This document shows positions 8,773-14,279 of a stretch of DNA of 35,618 bases, in pieces. The notes beneath the pieces are model-generated. The model was not told where the DNA came from. It did not search any database and saw nothing but the letters and a program-made list of their open reading frames with translations. This DNA comes from Nitrosomonadales bacterium. GTDB lineage: Bacteria > Pseudomonadota > Gammaproteobacteria > Burkholderiales > Gallionellaceae. Numbering within the stretch: the first letter of the stretch is position 1; each line of letters opens with the position of its first letter. The position numbers were made by a program, and so were the translations under genes. Location of the stretch: the NCBI GenBank assembly GCA_025350915.1, contig JANXWX010000014.1:1-35618 (forward strand). The letters run 5' to 3'.

Positions 8773-9040
8773 AGTGTTCCTATTAAAACAGCGAAGTGTT
8801 CCTATTAATAGGAACACTTTTACCCCTGTAAACACAGGGCTGTTCCTATTGTTCCTATTGTTCCTATCAAAAAACCATGTACGCGAGACGTGCGCACATG
8901 CACACGCGCGCATTGAAAATTTATTTATCTCTCTCACATACACGCGTAATAGGAACAATAGGAACAATAGGAACAGCCCTGTGTTTACAGGGGTAAAACT
9001 GTTCCTATTAATAGGAACACTTTTGAGGTTAATAGGAACA
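8773..9040. repeat. Putative replication origin: inverted repeat of iterons
   Basis: Arms 8794-8867 and 8949-9022 are 74-bp inverted repeats with one mismatch, separated by an 81-bp spacer that has a GC-rich half and an AT-rich half. The arms are built from a GTTCCTATT iteron. I count twelve copies in both orientations, six per side, including outer copies near 8775 and 9030. Three tandem copies at 9-bp spacing lie at each inner edge. The region is noncoding; open frames across it mirror each other because of the palindrome. Its position directly after the primase-helicase recalls the iteron origin of satellite phage P4. Confidence 0.75.
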
Positions 9041-9067: not shown

Positions 9068-9301
9068 ATGAATCTCCGCGAAGCCATGCCCATCGTCACC
9101 GAGTTCATCGACGCCTGCCGTGTCGCCTTTGGCGCTTCCAGCGTCAACGAAAGCATTAAGGCAGGAATGCAGGGCTTTGAAACGTTCTACGCCAGCGAAA
9201 ACGGCCACACCATCGGCACACCAATACCAGAGCCGAAGATTTACACCACCATGCGCCGCGACATTCAGCCGCTGGTCATCGCAAAGCGAGGCCGCCAATG
9301 A
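9068..9301 (+). CDS. Hypothetical protein, 77 aa
   Basis: Starts MNLREAMPIVTEFIDACR after an AAGGA site; the longer frame upstream runs through the origin palindrome and is rejected. The first 12 residues resemble the start of the 35-aa product at 32566-32673 (NLRESMPIVT), hinting at a shared short motif. The protein is soluble with no known domain. It ends with an ATGA overlap into the terminase small subunit gene. Confidence 0.7.
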   Translation: MNLREAMPIVTEFIDACRVAFGASSVNESIKAGMQGFETFYASENGHTIGTPIPEPKIYTTMRRDIQPLVIAKRGRQ

Positions 9302-9840
9302 GCCAGCACGTCACCCAGGCCGAATTTTCCCGCCTGCAGGGCGTGGATAAATCGCATGTCACCCGCCTCAAGCAAGCCGGGCGACTGGTAACGGTAGACG
9401 GCAAGGTCGATGTCGAAGCCAGCCGCGCGCTCATCGCGCAGACGGCAGACACCCGCTACAGCAGCAAAACCGCACAAAACGCGCAACAAGGCGACAACGC
9501 ATCCGCCAAAGTATCCACCCCACAAGACCAAACCGAACGCGCAGCCATGAGCCTACAAGCCGCCCGCGCGGTCAAAGAAAACTACACCGCTCGCATGGCG
9601 AAGCTCCTATTCGAGCGGGAAAGCGGCAAACTAGTCGAAGCCGACGCGGTTCGCCTGTTCGCCGCCGACTTGGGAGCAACTTTCCGCAGCTCACTGGAAA
9701 TCCTGCCCGACCGCATTGCGGCCGAGCTGGTACCTCTAAACGACACAGACTCCATCCGCGCGGTGCTGGTGGAATACATCGAACAGATACTCAGCGACCT
9801 GTCGGAAAAAATCGAGAAAGGAATTAAACATGCAAATTGA
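9298..9840 (+). CDS. Terminase small subunit (Nu1-like), 180 aa
   Basis: The N-terminal winged-helix-like segment (about residues 5-35, QAEFSRLQGVDKSHVTRLKQ) fits Nu1-type DNA-binding packaging proteins. The middle is a Gln/Ala-rich linker (to about 75) and the C-terminal helices (about 85-175) carry the long AARAVKENYTARMAKL helix typical of the family. It recognises cos and recruits the large subunit. It lies 2.5 kb upstream of the large subunit, separated by rha and an accessory insertion. Confidence 0.8.
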   Translation: MSQHVTQAEFSRLQGVDKSHVTRLKQAGRLVTVDGKVDVEASRALIAQTADTRYSSKTAQNAQQGDNASAKVSTPQDQTERAAMSLQAARAVKENYTARMAKLLFERESGKLVEADAVRLFAADLGATFRSSLEILPDRIAAELVPLNDTDSIRAVLVEYIEQILSDLSEKIEKGIKHAN

Positions 9841-9859: not shown

Positions 9860-10134
9860 CCCGCTTTACACGCCGCCCAAACTTGGACTACCATGCTCCC
9901 GCTGGCACAGATTGCCAGTCGGGTTTGGAAGCCCGAGAGTACGGCGGACAGGCCGCCAGCAAGCGGCCATTTTCACGTTCGTTAGCATCGCACCCAGTTT
10001 GGGCGGCGATGTGGGGAGCCTTCGGGCTCGCCGGTTCCGTCTCCCGGTCTTCCAACCTGCATCGCCGTCCTCCTTCATTTGGAAGTGAGCGAGGATGGCT
10101 TAATCAACCCGATACGGAGATTAACCATGTCTAA
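9856..10134 (+). CDS. Possible Ash-like ORF, 92 aa
   Basis: The frame starts MTRFTRRPN, is Arg/Ser/Gly-rich and low in order. It overlaps the rha start. Such ORFs upstream of phage regulators are often called Ash-family proteins. The same DNA is full of inverted repeats, so the real product may be RNA rather than protein. I cannot tell from sequence alone. Confidence 0.35.
   Translation: MTRFTRRPNLDYHAPAGTDCQSGLEAREYGGQAASKRPFSRSLASHPVWAAMWGAFGLAGSVSRSSNLHRRPPSFGSERGWLNQPDTEINHV
9871..10067 (+). ncRNA. Structured RNA leader upstream of rha
   Basis: A perfect 13-bp pair joins 9871-9883 (CGCCGCCCAAACT) with 9996-10008. A second perfect 8-bp pair joins 10004-10011 (CGGCGATG) with 10060-10067. 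These two share bases 10004-10008 and so exclude each other, as in an attenuator switch. Smaller hairpins occur inside (CTGGC/GCCAG at 9902-9918; GGCGG/CCGCC at 9943-9957). No T-run terminator is visible. Confidence 0.5.
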
Positions 10135-10804
10135 CACACTCGCACGCCCTCAACTCACCGTGGTCAACGGCCACGCAACAACCACCAGCAATCAGATCGC
10201 CGAGCATTTCGGCAAACGTCACGATGTTGTCTTGCGCGCCATCCGCAATTTAGATTGCACGCAGGAATTCAACGCCCACAATTTTGCGGCGGTTGAGTAT
10301 ATCGATCCCAAAGGCGAAAAACGCCCTGCCTACACCATCACCCGCGACGGCTTCGTTTTTCTGGCGATGGGTTTTACCGGCAAACAAGCCGCCCAGTGGA
10401 AGGAAGCCTACATCACCGCTTTCAACGCGATGGAATCCGAACTAGCCAAACCAGCCGCCAAACCTGCCACATTGCCCGCCGCCAACCACCTGAATCGCGA
10501 TTCCATGCACCGCATCAACAAGCGCGCCTGGGCGCTGGCGCAAGCGGCCTATGAGGATTTCCGCACCCGCATGCAGCGCGACATCATGGTCAGCGGCGGA
10601 CACACCTCGCCAGAAGACTGGCGCCCGGAAGAAACGCGCCGCGAGGTGTTGGTGGATATTGAGATAACGGCGTTGATTATGGAGTCGAATGCGAACATGT
10701 TAAGGAAGCGCGGAAAACGCCTCGCAAAAATGGTTGAGGAAGATTTTGACGAATCGGTGAACGAATTCAGGCCGGAAAGGAAAAAACAAAATGAGCGAAC
10801 TTGA
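10127..10804 (+). CDS. rha: Rha-family phage regulatory protein (225 aa)
   Basis: The ATG at 10127 follows CGGAGATTAACC. Residues about 10-105 form the pRha domain, recognisable by TTSNQIAEHFGKRHDVVLRA, then YTITRDGFVFLAMGFTG and KEAYITAFNAME. The rest is a helical, basic C-terminal region. Rha proteins interfere with phage growth in some hosts and are used as antirepressor-like regulators. The gene sits between the terminase subunits behind a structured leader, which may control it. Confidence 0.85.
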   Translation: MSNTLARPQLTVVNGHATTTSNQIAEHFGKRHDVVLRAIRNLDCTQEFNAHNFAAVEYIDPKGEKRPAYTITRDGFVFLAMGFTGKQAAQWKEAYITAFNAMESELAKPAAKPATLPAANHLNRDSMHRINKRAWALAQAAYEDFRTRMQRDIMVSGGHTSPEDWRPEETRREVLVDIEITALIMESNANMLRKRGKRLAKMVEEDFDESVNEFRPERKKQNERT

Positions 10805-11072
10805 AGATATCGGCAGGTTTCACCAGCTTGCCGACAAGGCAAAGGCCGCGCTGTTCAGGCGAGATGATCATCTGAGCCGGGTGGCGGCGATCATCCGCGC
10901 CGCCACCGAAGAGCCGCGTAGTAGCGCGGCGCTCGGCAAGCGCTGCAACTTCGATGCGATCGAGCGCATCGTCAGCGAGGCGCGGGCAGAACATGAGGCG
11001 CTGCTCGCCATGCTGGACGAAATGCGCGCGCTGGCGCCGGTGGCCAATAAGCCAGAGCCAAATCTTGAATAA
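10791..11072 (+). CDS. Hypothetical helical protein, 93 aa
   Basis: The site AAAGGAAAAAAC precedes the ATG, which overlaps the end of rha. The protein is Ala/Glu/Arg-rich and almost entirely helical, and is probably a small coiled-coil. No family recognised. It directly precedes the duplicated 5' end of the large terminase gene (11074). It was therefore probably the immediate upstream neighbour of terL before the insertion. Confidence 0.6.
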   Translation: MSELEDIGRFHQLADKAKAALFRRDDHLSRVAAIIRAATEEPRSSAALGKRCNFDAIERIVSEARAEHEALLAMLDEMRALAPVANKPEPNLE

Positions 11073-11073
11073 T

Positions 11074-11139
11074 ATGAACGCCCCCATTTCACCCTCCGCC
11101 CACACCATCATGGCCACCGCCTGCGCCCGCGCCCTGCGC
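11074..11139 (+). pseudogene. Duplicated 5' end of the large terminase gene (66 bp)
   Basis: It matches 12315-12380 at 64 of 66 positions and encodes MNAPISPSAHTIMATACARA before the match ends. This is the original or the copied start of terL; the rest of the gene lies about 1.2 kb away after an antisense cassette. The frame stays open far beyond the match only because it runs antisense through the cassette genes. Confidence 0.85.
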
Positions 11140-11180
11140 GAGACAACGACGATGTTGGCGGGCGGTGGGCAGGCATCCAT
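11140..11180 (-). pseudogene. Truncated 5' end of a fourth cassette gene
   Basis: ATG at 11180 follows the stop of the XRE gene immediately and has a perfect GGAGGA site inside that gene. About 13 codons (MDACPPPANIVVV) precede the terL duplication, after which the frame is antisense to terL. This suggests that the inserted block is a fragment of a longer operon cut at 11140. Confidence 0.5.
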
Positions 11181-11402
11181 TTACAATCCTCCTATTTTAT
11201 TTTTAAAAAGTTCCCACAAACCAGGGTGCATCCGCGCGATGCCGGCTTCCCAATCCTGCCATGTGCGCAGGGTGGAGTGGATGAGTTCGGCGGCGGCGGT
11301 CTGCGATAGTCCCGCCGCCTTGCGGGCTGAGCGGATTTCCTCGGGCTTCGGGTTACGCGCCGGATTATCCGCCCGGCGCGAGCGGTTCGGGTGGCTAACC
11401 AT
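11181..11402 (-). CDS. Small XRE-type HTH regulator, 73 aa
   Basis: The helix-turn-helix is at about residues 22-50 (IRSARKAAGLSQTAAAELIH and the following STLRTWQDWEAG). The N-terminus is basic. The start overlaps the upstream stop and has a GGAGG site. It is the third gene of an antisense cassette driven by a promoter with a palindromic operator at 12187-12205. It is the obvious candidate for that operator's repressor, giving autoregulation. Confidence 0.75.
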   Translation of the reverse strand: MVSHPNRSRRADNPARNPKPEEIRSARKAAGLSQTAAAELIHSTLRTWQDWEAGIARMHPGLWELFKNKIGGL

Positions 11403-11751
11403 TCCAGTCCTCCATCTGCTCGCCTATCACGCGCGCCAGGCGCGCGAGCGCGCTGGCATCCGTCATTGTGATGCGCCTCGGCTCGCAGAGCTGATAACAG
11501 GAACACATCACAAGCCACACCTCACCGTCGGCGTTGGCGAGCCACACCTTGGCGTTCTCAAGCGCCTCATCGGCCATGTCCTGGATATCTTCCCGGTAGT
11601 CTACCTCAGTCGGGTCGAAGAGCTGGACGAGCGCGCCATCCACGAAGCGGGCGAGCTTCCATCCCGCTCCCGTGTAAATGTCCTTCTCGGCCTGGCTGAG
11701 GTTGATCGCCTCGCAGGCCGGGACCTGCTCGATACGGTCTTTTACTTTCAT
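11395..11751 (-). CDS. Hypothetical protein, 118 aa, antisense cassette
   Basis: The ATG at 11751 has a strong site (AAAGGGGATC). The product is acidic and mixed alpha/beta, with a patch VWLVMCSCYQLCEP (three cysteines, about residues 78-91) in the last third. No family recognised. It lies between the 128-aa gene and the XRE regulator, and overlaps the latter. The trio may be a defence or toxin-antitoxin-like unit, but no toxin motif is visible. Confidence 0.65.
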   Translation of the reverse strand: MKVKDRIEQVPACEAINLSQAEKDIYTGAGWKLARFVDGALVQLFDPTEVDYREDIQDMADEALENAKVWLANADGEVWLVMCSCYQLCEPRRITMTDASALARLARVIGEQMEDWNG

Positions 11752-11763
11752 GGTGATCCCCTT

Positions 11764-12150
11764 TCAAATAAAGCCGTGCATTTCGCGATGCGACCGCGCG
11801 TCGCGTGCGCGGTCTCCGCGCGCATGTTTTTCATCAGTTGCCTGGTGGCGGAACGACTGATCCGCCCACTGCTTGCGATACGTGCCGCTGGCGTACAGGT
11901 TGCGCCCTTTGATGCGCAACTCGCCGCCATCGGCCAGTTCCAAGGTGAAGGTGTGTTGCTGTTTGTCACGTCCGTAGCTATCGCGGACGATCCTTCCGGT
12001 GATCATCTCGAATCCGGCGAATTTTGCGTTTCGAAAACTGCCAGAGAATGTGGCGCGCTCGAAGCGCACCTCGTCGCCAACCACGGCATCGCCGGTGCAG
12101 TTGATGCAAAATTCGTCGTCACCGACGTAGGTGGAAGTTTGGTAAGCCAT
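11764..12150 (-). CDS. Hypothetical protein, 128 aa, first gene of the antisense cassette
   Basis: The ATG at 12150 has an excellent site, GAGGAGATTTAAA; an upstream in-frame ATG is rejected. The protein starts MAYQTSTYVGDDEFCINCTG and looks rich in beta-strands for about 95 residues, with a CINC pair, then a charged, His/Arg-rich tail. I have a vague memory of similar proteins on plasmids and phages, none with a function. It is transcribed from the strong promoter at 12212-12239. Confidence 0.7.
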   Translation of the reverse strand: MAYQTSTYVGDDEFCINCTGDAVVGDEVRFERATFSGSFRNAKFAGFEMITGRIVRDSYGRDKQQHTFTLELADGGELRIKGRNLYASGTYRKQWADQSFRHQATDEKHARGDRARDARSHREMHGFI

Positions 12151-12186
12151 TTTAAATCTCCTCAAGCCCCTGTTCCCGAGGCGCGG

Positions 12187-12239
12187 TGTGAACGTTTTGT
12201 TCACAGTTCCCATTATATACGGATTCCGTGCGTCGTCAA
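12187..12239 (-). promoter_or_regulatory. Strong promoter and palindromic operator of the antisense cassette
   Basis: Leftward -35 TTGACG (12239-12234), 16-bp spacer, -10 TATAAT (12217-12212). The predicted start lies at the first base of a perfect dyad, TGTGAAC-N5-GTTCACA (12187-12205). A repressor bound there would block initiation. The dyad is unlike the OL/OR operator, so the cassette is regulated independently of the phage repressor. Confidence 0.8.
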
Positions 12240-12314
12240 GCGTTTTTTAACATTTTTACAACATATTGAATTTATTAAATATTTTACCACGTACCGCACC
12301 ACATGGAGCGCCGC

Positions 12315-14279
12315 ATGAACGCCCCTATTTCACCCTCCGCCCACGCCATCATGGCCACCGCCTGCGCCCGCGCCCTGCGCCCGCGTGAGCGCCTAACCGT
12401 CAGCCAATGGGCAGACCGGCACCGCATCCTCACCAGCAAGCAGTCCGGAGAGGCTGGCCGCTGGCGCACGGCGCGCAACCCCATGCTGCGCGAAATTATG
12501 GATTGCCTGTCGGCTCACTCCACCGTGCGCGAGGTGACGGTGATGAAATCCTCGCAGGTAGGTGTCACTGAAATGTCGGTGAACTGGATCGGCTACATTA
12601 TCGAGCATGCGCATTATCCGGCTATGGTGTTGATGCCCACGCTGGAGAGCCGCGACACCTGGAAGGCACAGAAGCTCAACCCGCTGCTGTCCGATACCGA
12701 ATGCGTGCGCGACATCCTCGGTGGCATCCGCTCGCGCGACGCGACCAACAGCAAAGATATGATCGACTACCCAGGCGGCATCCTGTTCCTGGCGGGCGGC
12801 AATTCGCCAAACAGCTACGCGCAAAAGTCGGTACGCTTTTTGATGCTGGACGATCTCGACCGCTTCCCGATGGTGGTCGGCGATGAGGGTGATCCGGTGG
12901 AGCTGGCGCGTAGTCGCGTAAAGGCCTTCCCGCGCTATAAAATTTTGCTTGCCAGTACGCCCACGCTCAAGGGTGCATCGTTGATCGAGCGCGAATACGA
13001 GGCGGGCGACCAGCGCCGCTACCAGGTGCCGTGCCCGCACTGCGGTGAGCGTCTGGTGCTGCGCTGGAGTAACGTCAAGGCCAACGCGCAGCTCACGGAG
13101 GCATGGTACCAGTGCGAGCATAACGGCTGCATCATTGAAGAGCACTACAAGCCCGCCATGCTGGCGGACGGTATATGGATACCCGAAAAGCCGGAGATAA
13201 AAAACCACCGAAGCTACCACATCAGCGCCATCTACGCCCCAATCGGCCTCGGCCCTTCCTGGCTCGACCTGATGATCCAGTTCAAGCGCGTGCACAAAGA
13301 CCCGCAGCAGCTCAAGACCTTCATCAACTCCAACCTGGGCGAGAGCTGGGAAGACCAAACCAACAAACTCAAACCGCACGACCTCGCCAAGCGCATGGGT
13401 GATCACACCCTCGGCATCATCCCGCCCGGTTGCCTGGCGCTCACCGTCGGCATCGATACCCAAGACAAATGGCTCGCTATCACCATGTTGGGCTGGGGCG
13501 CACCTGCGCACGAAAACGGCCCAGCCAGATTATGGATACTGGACTGGACTGAAATTCAGGGCGATACCACCAACCCCGAAGTATGGAATGAACTAGAGGC
13601 ATATCTCCATCGCCCGCTGCTAAACAGCTTTGGCAAGGAAATAAAAATACGTGCCGCCGCCATCGACTCACGCGGCCACCGCACAGAGCAGGTTAAGGAC
13701 TTCGTCATGCGCACCAGCTTGCGCATCCGTGTGTATTCCGTACAGGGCGCCACCAACCGCATCGGCCGTGCCATCGCCCAGGCCGGCAGCTACCCCAATA
13801 AAAATTATATTGGTAAAGTCATCAAGCATGGCTACTGTGTGTGGAACGTCGGTACTGAGCACTGTAAAGACTTTATCTTTGCCAACCTCGCCGCCGATGG
13901 CGAGCGTATTCCAAGCGATCGCGTTTTTAATTTTCCCCAAGGCCTTGAAGACGAATACTTCAACGGCCTGCTATCCGAAGTCTACGATCCAGAAAAAAAA
14001 CGTTACATCATGCGCATCGGCGCCAAACACAAGCGCAACGAACCGCTGGATACAGCGGTATATGCCTGGGCTATCGGCCACCACCGCGATATAAACATCG
14101 GAAGAGGCAGGGCAGGCAGGCCGGATCCAAAGTATTGGACGCGGCTGGAAGCGATGCTCGAAAGTGGGGAGACGGTAGAGGTACATGAGCCTACAACGCC
14201 ATATATTGCACCGCCTCAGCTAGCCGCCAAGCAATCCAGAAATCGTCCTCGCGTAATCAGGAAGGGACAGCATGATTAA
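12315..14279 (+). CDS. Terminase large subunit, GpA family (654 aa)
   Basis: Packaging ATPase and nuclease. A degenerate Walker A SSQVGVTE is at residues 79-86 and a Walker B-like MLDDLD at about 178-182. A zinc-like pair, CPHC at 240-243 with CEHNGC at 267-272, is typical of the lambda gpA family. The C-terminal half is the nuclease, with acidic residues in TVGIDTQDK and AAAIDSRG. The ATG at 12315 is chosen because GGAG lies 7 bases upstream; ATG 12303 is an alternative. GpA terminases cut at cos, so cohesive ends are expected. The first 66 bp are duplicated at 11074. Confidence 0.92.
   Translation: MNAPISPSAHAIMATACARALRPRERLTVSQWADRHRILTSKQSGEAGRWRTARNPMLREIMDCLSAHSTVREVTVMKSSQVGVTEMSVNWIGYIIEHAHYPAMVLMPTLESRDTWKAQKLNPLLSDTECVRDILGGIRSRDATNSKDMIDYPGGILFLAGGNSPNSYAQKSVRFLMLDDLDRFPMVVGDEGDPVELARSRVKAFPRYKILLASTPTLKGASLIEREYEAGDQRRYQVPCPHCGERLVLRWSNVKANAQLTEAWYQCEHNGCIIEEHYKPAMLADGIWIPEKPEIKNHRSYHISAIYAPIGLGPSWLDLMIQFKRVHKDPQQLKTFINSNLGESWEDQTNKLKPHDLAKRMGDHTLGIIPPGCLALTVGIDTQDKWLAITMLGWGAPAHENGPARLWILDWTEIQGDTTNPEVWNELEAYLHRPLLNSFGKEIKIRAAAIDSRGHRTEQVKDFVMRTSLRIRVYSVQGATNRIGRAIAQAGSYPNKNYIGKVIKHGYCVWNVGTEHCKDFIFANLAADGERIPSDRVFNFPQGLEDEYFNGLLSEVYDPEKKRYIMRIGAKHKRNEPLDTAVYAWAIGHHRDINIGRGRAGRPDPKYWTRLEAMLESGETVEVHEPTTPYIAPPQLAAKQSRNRPRVIRKGQHD

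Follow-up and report, generated by a model that had tools for sequence, protein, structure and literature searches.

How did three antisense genes come to stand between two copies of the start of a phage terminase gene, and what might they do there? The question is raised by a 35,618-nucleotide stretch of DNA from a Nitrosomonadales bacterium (Gallionellaceae; assembly GCA_025350915.1, contig JANXWX010000014.1), here called the window, in which the first 66 bp of the large terminase gene terL occur at 11074–11139 and again at 12315–12380 (64/66 identical), by far the longest repeat within 10500–13200. The original prediction for this locus described an antisense accessory cassette of three complete genes with its own promoter, the insertion of which had duplicated the terL start and set it next to a new GGAG site, with neither a transposase nor inverted ends in sight. 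The repeat comparison, the coordinates of three complete reverse open reading frames (ORFs; 11764–12150, 11395–11751, and 11181–11402), and scans for ORFs, repeats, and families agree with the cassette, its promoter, the empty sites among relatives, and the absence of a transposase and of inverted ends, and speak against the duplication mechanism. The insert is probably an Aca10-type counter-defence operon with a candidate AcrIIC1-like Cas9 blocker, an Aca10-like shut-off, and a shared leader, which would have reached terL by recombination between two related phages. This reading draws on homologies, operator layout, covariation of operator and regulator, recurrence of the leader, and the structure of the junction, all of them read from sequence. 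The insert and its edges comprise the following features.

12315–14279, plus strand: intact terL, GpA-type large terminase (PF05876, E 3e-79; PF20454, E 2e-60)
12305–12308, plus strand: GGAG, 6 nt before the terL ATG at 12315 (read from the sequence)
12212–12239, minus strand: sigma-70-like promoter, TTGACG-N16-TATAAT (sequence and operator scan)
12219–12229, minus strand: candidate operator palindrome ACGGA-A-TCCGT between −35 and −10 (layout common to Aca10-like loci)
12187–12205, minus strand: leader hairpin 1, TGTGAAC-AAAAC-GTTCACA, 7-bp stem (read from the sequence)
12166–12186, minus strand: conserved leader core CCGCGCCTCGGGAACAGGGGC (recurrence in viral stretches)
12157–12162, minus strand: ribosome-binding site GAGGAG of the first gene (read from the sequence)
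11764–12150, minus strand: DUF7699 protein of 128 residues, first operon gene, candidate counter-defence protein (PF24766, E 5e-17)
11395–11751, minus strand: orf118, candidate type II-C Cas9 inhibitor, AcrIIC1-like (AlphaFold2 model, Foldseek, VIA, profile search)
11181–11402, minus strand: aca10-like gene, helix-turn-helix repressor of 73 residues, last complete operon gene (phmmer to 7xi5; HTH_31)
11140–11180, minus strand: truncated fourth operon gene, first 13–14 codons MDACPPPANIVVVS (homologue in L017)
11136–11139, plus strand: GCGC microhomology at the illegitimate junction, common to terL and L017 where the sequences meet
11074–11139, plus strand: vestigial first 22 codons of terL, left repeat copy (64/66 identical to 12315–12380)

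Aca10-like regulator and its operator

The last complete gene encodes a protein with marked similarity to the crystal-structure chain 7xi5 (phmmer E 3.2e-22, residues 16–69), which is Aca10, the protein that represses the acrIC7-acrIC6-aca10 operon of Pseudomonas citronellolis (PMC9410881). Of the residues with which Aca10 contacts DNA (Q22, R34, Q37, and R44; PMC9410881), the first three are kept in the window protein, and R44 is replaced by Ala. Since the R44Y replacement in Aca10 abolishes binding to its own site (PMC9410881), the comparison suggests that the proteins with A44 have changed their specificity rather than lost it. The promoter faces the three genes, as had been predicted, and the palindrome between its −35 and −10 elements has the full 15-mer GCACGGAATCCGTAT. 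Aca10 itself binds AATACGCTCATTGAGCGTATT between −35 and −10 (PMC9410881), a site matched in our Ps. citronellolis locus (L111), and a palindrome occupies the same position in about 30 independent Aca10-like loci.

Across about 40 operons, the operator palindrome varies with residues 38 and 44 of the regulator. Position 5 of the half-site is G in 20/20 half-sites where residue 38 is Gln, and A in 36/40 where it is Asp or Glu; the tree has several changes at residue 38, so that its association with the operator rests on more than one event. With Ala at residue 44, both half-sites have G at position 2 in 9/10 operators, as against 0/31 with Arg (R44-type site, GCGCATTGCGC), an association that counts as one event because the A44 proteins form one clade. 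The window regulator is of the D38/A44 type, and its operator fits these residues. Two loci (L178 and L192) have the first-gene family in common, yet carry different types of regulator with correspondingly different operators. From this layout, we infer that the window regulator represses its own operon through the palindrome. Aca10-like genes were also seen at loci L130, L133, L134, and L136–L138 with palindromic promoters having arms of 17–19 bp, twice per locus and in opposite orientation, which look like a separate small element.

AcrIIC1-like protein and the accompanying cargo

The AlphaFold2 model of orf118 (pLDDT [predicted local distance difference test], 91.5) gave AcrIIC1 of three sources at ranks 1–3 in a Foldseek search of the PDB (best E, 4.5e-3), with more AcrIIC1 chains down to rank 10, and the VIA comparison placed AcrIIC1 at ranks 1–7 (Z 6.0 to 4.3). 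When a profile of six orf118 relatives was compared with all PDB sequences, the top three hits were again AcrIIC1 (E 0.02–0.04) with nothing else below 1.9. The predicted core fold resembles that of the AcrIIC1 proteins Nme, Boe, and Vei (PMC9674691; PDB entry IDs, 5vgb, 9j2g, and 9j1y), and the GxGW.LA...dG motif is also found in orf118. Ser84–Cys85, with Ser84 invariant in the six relatives, aligns with Ser79–Cys80, which AcrIIC1 uses at its contact with the HNH domain of Cas9 (PMC9674691). The identity between AcrIIC1 and orf118 is about 23–27%, orf118 has an extra C-terminal helix, and Cys17 of AcrIIC1 is Ala in the window protein and Cys in L095. Each of these scores is modest, yet their agreement on AcrIIC1 appears specific; orf118 is probably AcrIIC1-related cargo, and the model would be compatible with anti-Cas9 activity. 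In a comparison of its co-occurrence with Cas9, the gene is present in only two of 399 genomes, those of the host and G422. The host encodes a type II-C cas9-cas1-cas2 system with an array of 36-bp repeats, which lies at a contig end and has only two full repeats.

The first gene product, the DUF7699 protein, has a predicted barrel-like fold, for which no convincing match was found in the PDB. Its gene lies next to orf118 in L030 as well, and also in one further genome (L252). DUF7699 was also seen as part of giant multi-domain fusion proteins in L084 and L091 (>1,400 residues in L091). Altogether, small genes of no assigned function lie upstream of an aca gene in one operon on a mobile element, the arrangement by which acr-aca operons are recognized, and the conserved ends with changing cargo in L015, L030, L032, and the window form the pattern of such operons. 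We propose that the insert is a variant acr-aca operon with new cargo and a modular, early counter-defence character.

Conserved leader

Between promoter and first gene, the window carries a leader that reads CCGCGCCTCGGG-AA-CAGGGGC and is followed by the Shine–Dalgarno sequence, the general pattern being CCGCGCCTCGGG-n-CAGGGGC-n-GAG. The core has one match in the window and none in 100 shuffles, and the exact motif CCGCGCCTCGGG-N2-5-CAGGGGCTGGAG is found in 73 viral stretches, mostly before unrelated first genes; among 158 genomes of the host family, a looser form is present in two, namely the host and a second member of its genus. In a scan made without aca10 as bait, an aca10-like gene lies within 2 kb downstream on the same strand at 41 of 57 distinct leaders (40/49 of those with at least 700 bp downstream), as against 0/57 for the control orientations, upstream of the leader or on the opposite strand. 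Promoters with at least 9 of the 12 consensus positions accompany 45/57 leaders (shuffled mean, 5), and palindromes with arms of at least 5 accompany 26/57 (shuffled mean, 0.8). The first genes after 76 leaders fall into 60 unrelated clusters, and coding homology therefore cannot explain the leader; they include ArdC-like, DUF932, DUF3560, and methyltransferase-like proteins. AcrIC5 was also considered among them and rejected, its weak similarity being below the family cut-off.

Directly upstream of the core, a stem of at least 5 pairs is present in 39/73 leaders (6 by shuffling), with 31 different stem sequences, and GCCTC in the core can pair with GGGGC beside the Shine–Dalgarno sequence to form a second hairpin. 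RNAalifold applied to the whole structure of all leaders pairs hairpin 2 only, because the length of hairpin 1 varies, and the stem count was used in its place. The leader is widespread. No Rfam 15 family matched 12150–12210 up to E 0.1, and within a literature search of open-access papers, two papers on Aca10 make no mention of it. Among cultured phage records, none matched DUF7699, orf118, or the leader. A function of the leader in translational insulation or control seems plausible from these features.

Several other occurrences were seen. On the conjugative Citrobacter plasmid pTTHS031_GES (L250, 2950–3750), the leader precedes a gene related to the cargo of L032, with a ribbon-helix-helix-like protein in the place of Aca10 and an ampC gene 1.4 kb downstream. 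In L174 (10649–11512), a protein with an ArdC-like anti-restriction domain comes directly after the leader, and the available stretch has no aca10-like gene. Related first genes lie upstream of terS in L017 (4708–5274) and after a leader in L201 (12770–13246). Aca10-like proteins and ten unrelated operon proteins have in common an N-terminal box, M-x-NHPNR (loci L072, L128, L180, L184, L185, L187, L214, L239, and L250), as if the gene starts were exchange joints.

Joint with terL and route of acquisition

At about 13 related loci, near-copies among them, terS directly overlaps the start of terL without interruption, and the arrangement in the window is accordingly not common to all relatives: the empty site that distinguishes an insertion does exist. 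The terS–terL junction is a variable site, which carries a PP-loop enzyme-like gene in L016 and L019, a methyltransferase-like gene in L030, and an ASCH-like gene in L035, these functions being read from motifs only. In the window, the following genes precede the left copy of the repeat.

9298–9840, plus strand: terS, terminase small subunit (PHROG 57, E 4e-27)
10079–10804, plus strand: rha-family antirepressor/regulator between terS and terL (PF09669, E 4e-31; PHROG 995)
10791–11072, plus strand: orf93, accessory gene in forward orientation, immediately ahead of the partial terL copy (no relatives found)

The left edge of the insert bears a feature that the original prediction had overlooked: 41 bp of a fourth gene (11140–11180), the ATG of which comes directly after the stop of the aca10-like gene and which breaks off at codon 22 of terL. 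The homologue of this gene is intact in L017 (4274–4005, minus strand), where it begins MIDTCPPPPPAHIVVVS, and the window and L017 have 20 identical nucleotides ending where the terL copy starts. At the joint, terL reads ...CTGCGC and L017 reads ...GGGCGCGAGACAACGACGATGT. A left edge within a gene that is intact in L017, with GCGC on both sides, points to an illegitimate joint inside the fourth operon gene. The right end is flush with intact terL, and in L015 and L032 the same promoter region stands immediately ahead of terL. Similarity to L032 extends from the start of the first gene to within about 30 bp of the terL ATG; that to L030, where the operon faces terS, ends earlier. When the three genes were searched for elsewhere, as had been suggested, L030 was found to carry them upstream of terS in unchanged order, together with the same promoter region and an extra gene of 220 codons. 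In L015 and L032, the aca10-like last gene abuts terS, and the cargo gene differs from that of the window.

Judged by its edges, the insert appears to be a fragment of a leftward phage operon, not a transposon, and a two-phage junction with one illegitimate end and one shared terL end seems to fit better than a target-site duplication. In the simplest history, the operon would have been acquired by one-sided illegitimate recombination between related phages: a phage with the operon flush against terL would have recombined with one carrying terS-rha-orf93-terL, the GCGC joint cutting the fourth gene and leaving behind 66 bp of the recipient's terL. Neither presumed parent, including the recipient arrangement terS-rha-orf93-terL, was found when looked for, and orf93, searched likewise, gave no relatives; this history and the order of its events are for that reason put forward conditionally.

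Alternative explanations

It is very unlikely that a small mobile cassette integrated at codon 22 of terL with a 66-bp target duplication, perhaps by a recombinase supplied in trans. Direct repeats do flank the insert, and L030 has the three genes at a different location, but the insert contains no integrase, transposase, or inverted ends, and its left edge falls within a truncated gene that L017 has intact, findings by which target-site duplication by a transposon was rejected. Moreover, L015 and L032 carry a related operon before terL without the repeat, and the L030 operon, upstream of terS and with one more gene, has ends differing from those of the insert. That the 66-bp repeat is an artefact of assembly or a tandem duplication error, with no operon transfer at all, has a next to negligible chance: the assembly is a draft of 263 contigs, but the two copies differ at 2 sites between unique flanks, and a homologue of the L017 gene at the junction is not something an assembler would invent. 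It is rather doubtful that the leader is a pure DNA element, such as an extended operator or a recombination hot spot for first-gene swaps, instead of an RNA regulator. The nearly invariant core is what a recombination joint would show, and the NHPNR box is likewise common to unrelated operon proteins; nevertheless, the leader follows the promoter and precedes the Shine–Dalgarno sequence by a fixed distance, and the adjacent hairpin keeps its stem with 31 different sequences. Possible, though somewhat improbable, is that the same architecture serves no anti-CRISPR purpose and represents a general early accessory operon (DNA metabolism, anti-restriction, or superinfection control) under an Aca10-like autoregulator. 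Genes of the aca type are found in the absence of known acr genes (PMC9410906), the first genes after the leader include the ArdC-like, DUF932, DUF3560, and methyltransferase-like proteins named above, the AcrIC5 similarity is below the cut-off, and DUF7699 has no assigned role and is present in large fused proteins. Set against this, every method ranked AcrIIC1 first for orf118, and aca10 of Ps. citronellolis sits with validated acr genes.

Several points weigh against the Aca10-type operon with an AcrIIC1-like Cas9 blocker that we prefer. The sequence similarity of orf118 to AcrIIC1 is weak (the profile E values given above), a single-sequence search with orf118 finds no AcrIIC1, the VIA Z of 6 is below the level called clear by the tool, and no Pfam or NCBIfam family names the protein. 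G422, the sole other bearer among the 399 genomes, is without a clear Cas9. The host cas9 (L099, contig C161, 684–3719) is split in its HNH region by an in-frame TAA at 2421–2423, which may reflect an inactive system or a wrong base in the assembly, and the two readable host spacers, compared with the window as a test of self-targeting, gave no match to this prophage (at least 10 mismatches). On the side of the operator, the first scan selected promoters by consensus, and the residue 44 association is that of a single clade and event.

Neighbouring features

9996–10075, plus strand: C4 antisense RNA upstream of rha (RF01695, 58.7 bits; gathering, 45)

A site resembling the a1/b1 target of the C4 RNA precedes it at 9888–9939 (RF03163, 29.8 bits, below gathering). 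C4 RNA and an a1/b1 target-like site before rha (9888–10804) resemble the arrangement of P1/P7-type antirepressor control, and the true start of rha may be the ATG near 10127. DNA similar to this region (9888–10804) is present in several genomes of the host family. A near-identical direct repeat lies close to both contig ends (117–275 and 33803–33960) and is possibly linked to the ends of a prophage; a further short repeat was seen at 8797/9000.

Proposed mechanism and implications

Based on these results, the following course may be proposed. Upon phage entry or induction, the strong sigma-70-like promoter (12239–12212, minus strand) would make a short transcript comprising, in order, the leader, the DUF7699 gene, the AcrIIC1-like gene, and the aca10-like gene. 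The leader, with two hairpins before the Shine–Dalgarno sequence, would insulate or tune the translation of whichever first gene follows, which would explain its constancy while the genes change. The AcrIIC1-like protein would block type II-C Cas9 at the HNH domain, and DUF7699 may counter another defence. The Aca10-like dimer would then bind the palindrome between −35 and −10 and shut the operon off.

Among the closest known systems is acrIC7-acrIC6-aca10 of Ps. citronellolis (PMC9410881, PMC7913775), which likewise has small genes first, an Aca10-family gene last, and a palindromic operator overlapping the −35/−10 region. The window differs from it in its cargo (DUF7699 and AcrIIC1-like), in A44 for R44, and in the ACGGA half-sites; the Ps. 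citronellolis leader, a divergent form, lacks the CCGCGCCTCGGG core. In archaeal viruses, anti-defence genes have also been defined by one common regulatory sequence before diverse small early genes (PMC11065993), whereas the present system belongs to bacterial phages and prophages, its hairpin-bearing leader comes after the promoter, and an Aca10-like regulator is encoded in cis. Like moron insertions, it places independently promoted accessory genes at a variable junction, as at the terS–terL site of L016, L019, L030, and L035, but one of its ends is illegitimate and left a partial terL. Transposon or integron cassettes have a transposase, an integrase, or inverted ends, none of which is present in the insert.

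The evidence leaves about evenly balanced the broader proposal that many proteobacterial phages carry members of a large family of exchangeable counter-defence operons which is defined by the RNA leader, is under dual control by Aca10-like repressors (specificity readable from residues 38 and 44) and a post-transcriptional leader, and has a new AcrIIC1-related family among its cargo. Given the covariation of regulator and operator, the DNA specificity of Aca10 repressors can be tested directly. Should orf118 indeed be a relative of AcrIIC1, the small family of such Cas9 inhibitors would be widened to uncultured Proteobacteria of the iron and sulfur cycles. Counter-defence genes, anti-CRISPR genes among them, have no sequence in common and are hard to find; the leader precedes at least 60 unrelated first-gene families, almost always with an aca10-like gene after it, and the candidates found with it include known anti-defence kinds in weak form (ArdC-like and AcrIC5-like). 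The leader may therefore be usable as a simple DNA probe to list further counter-defence gene candidates.

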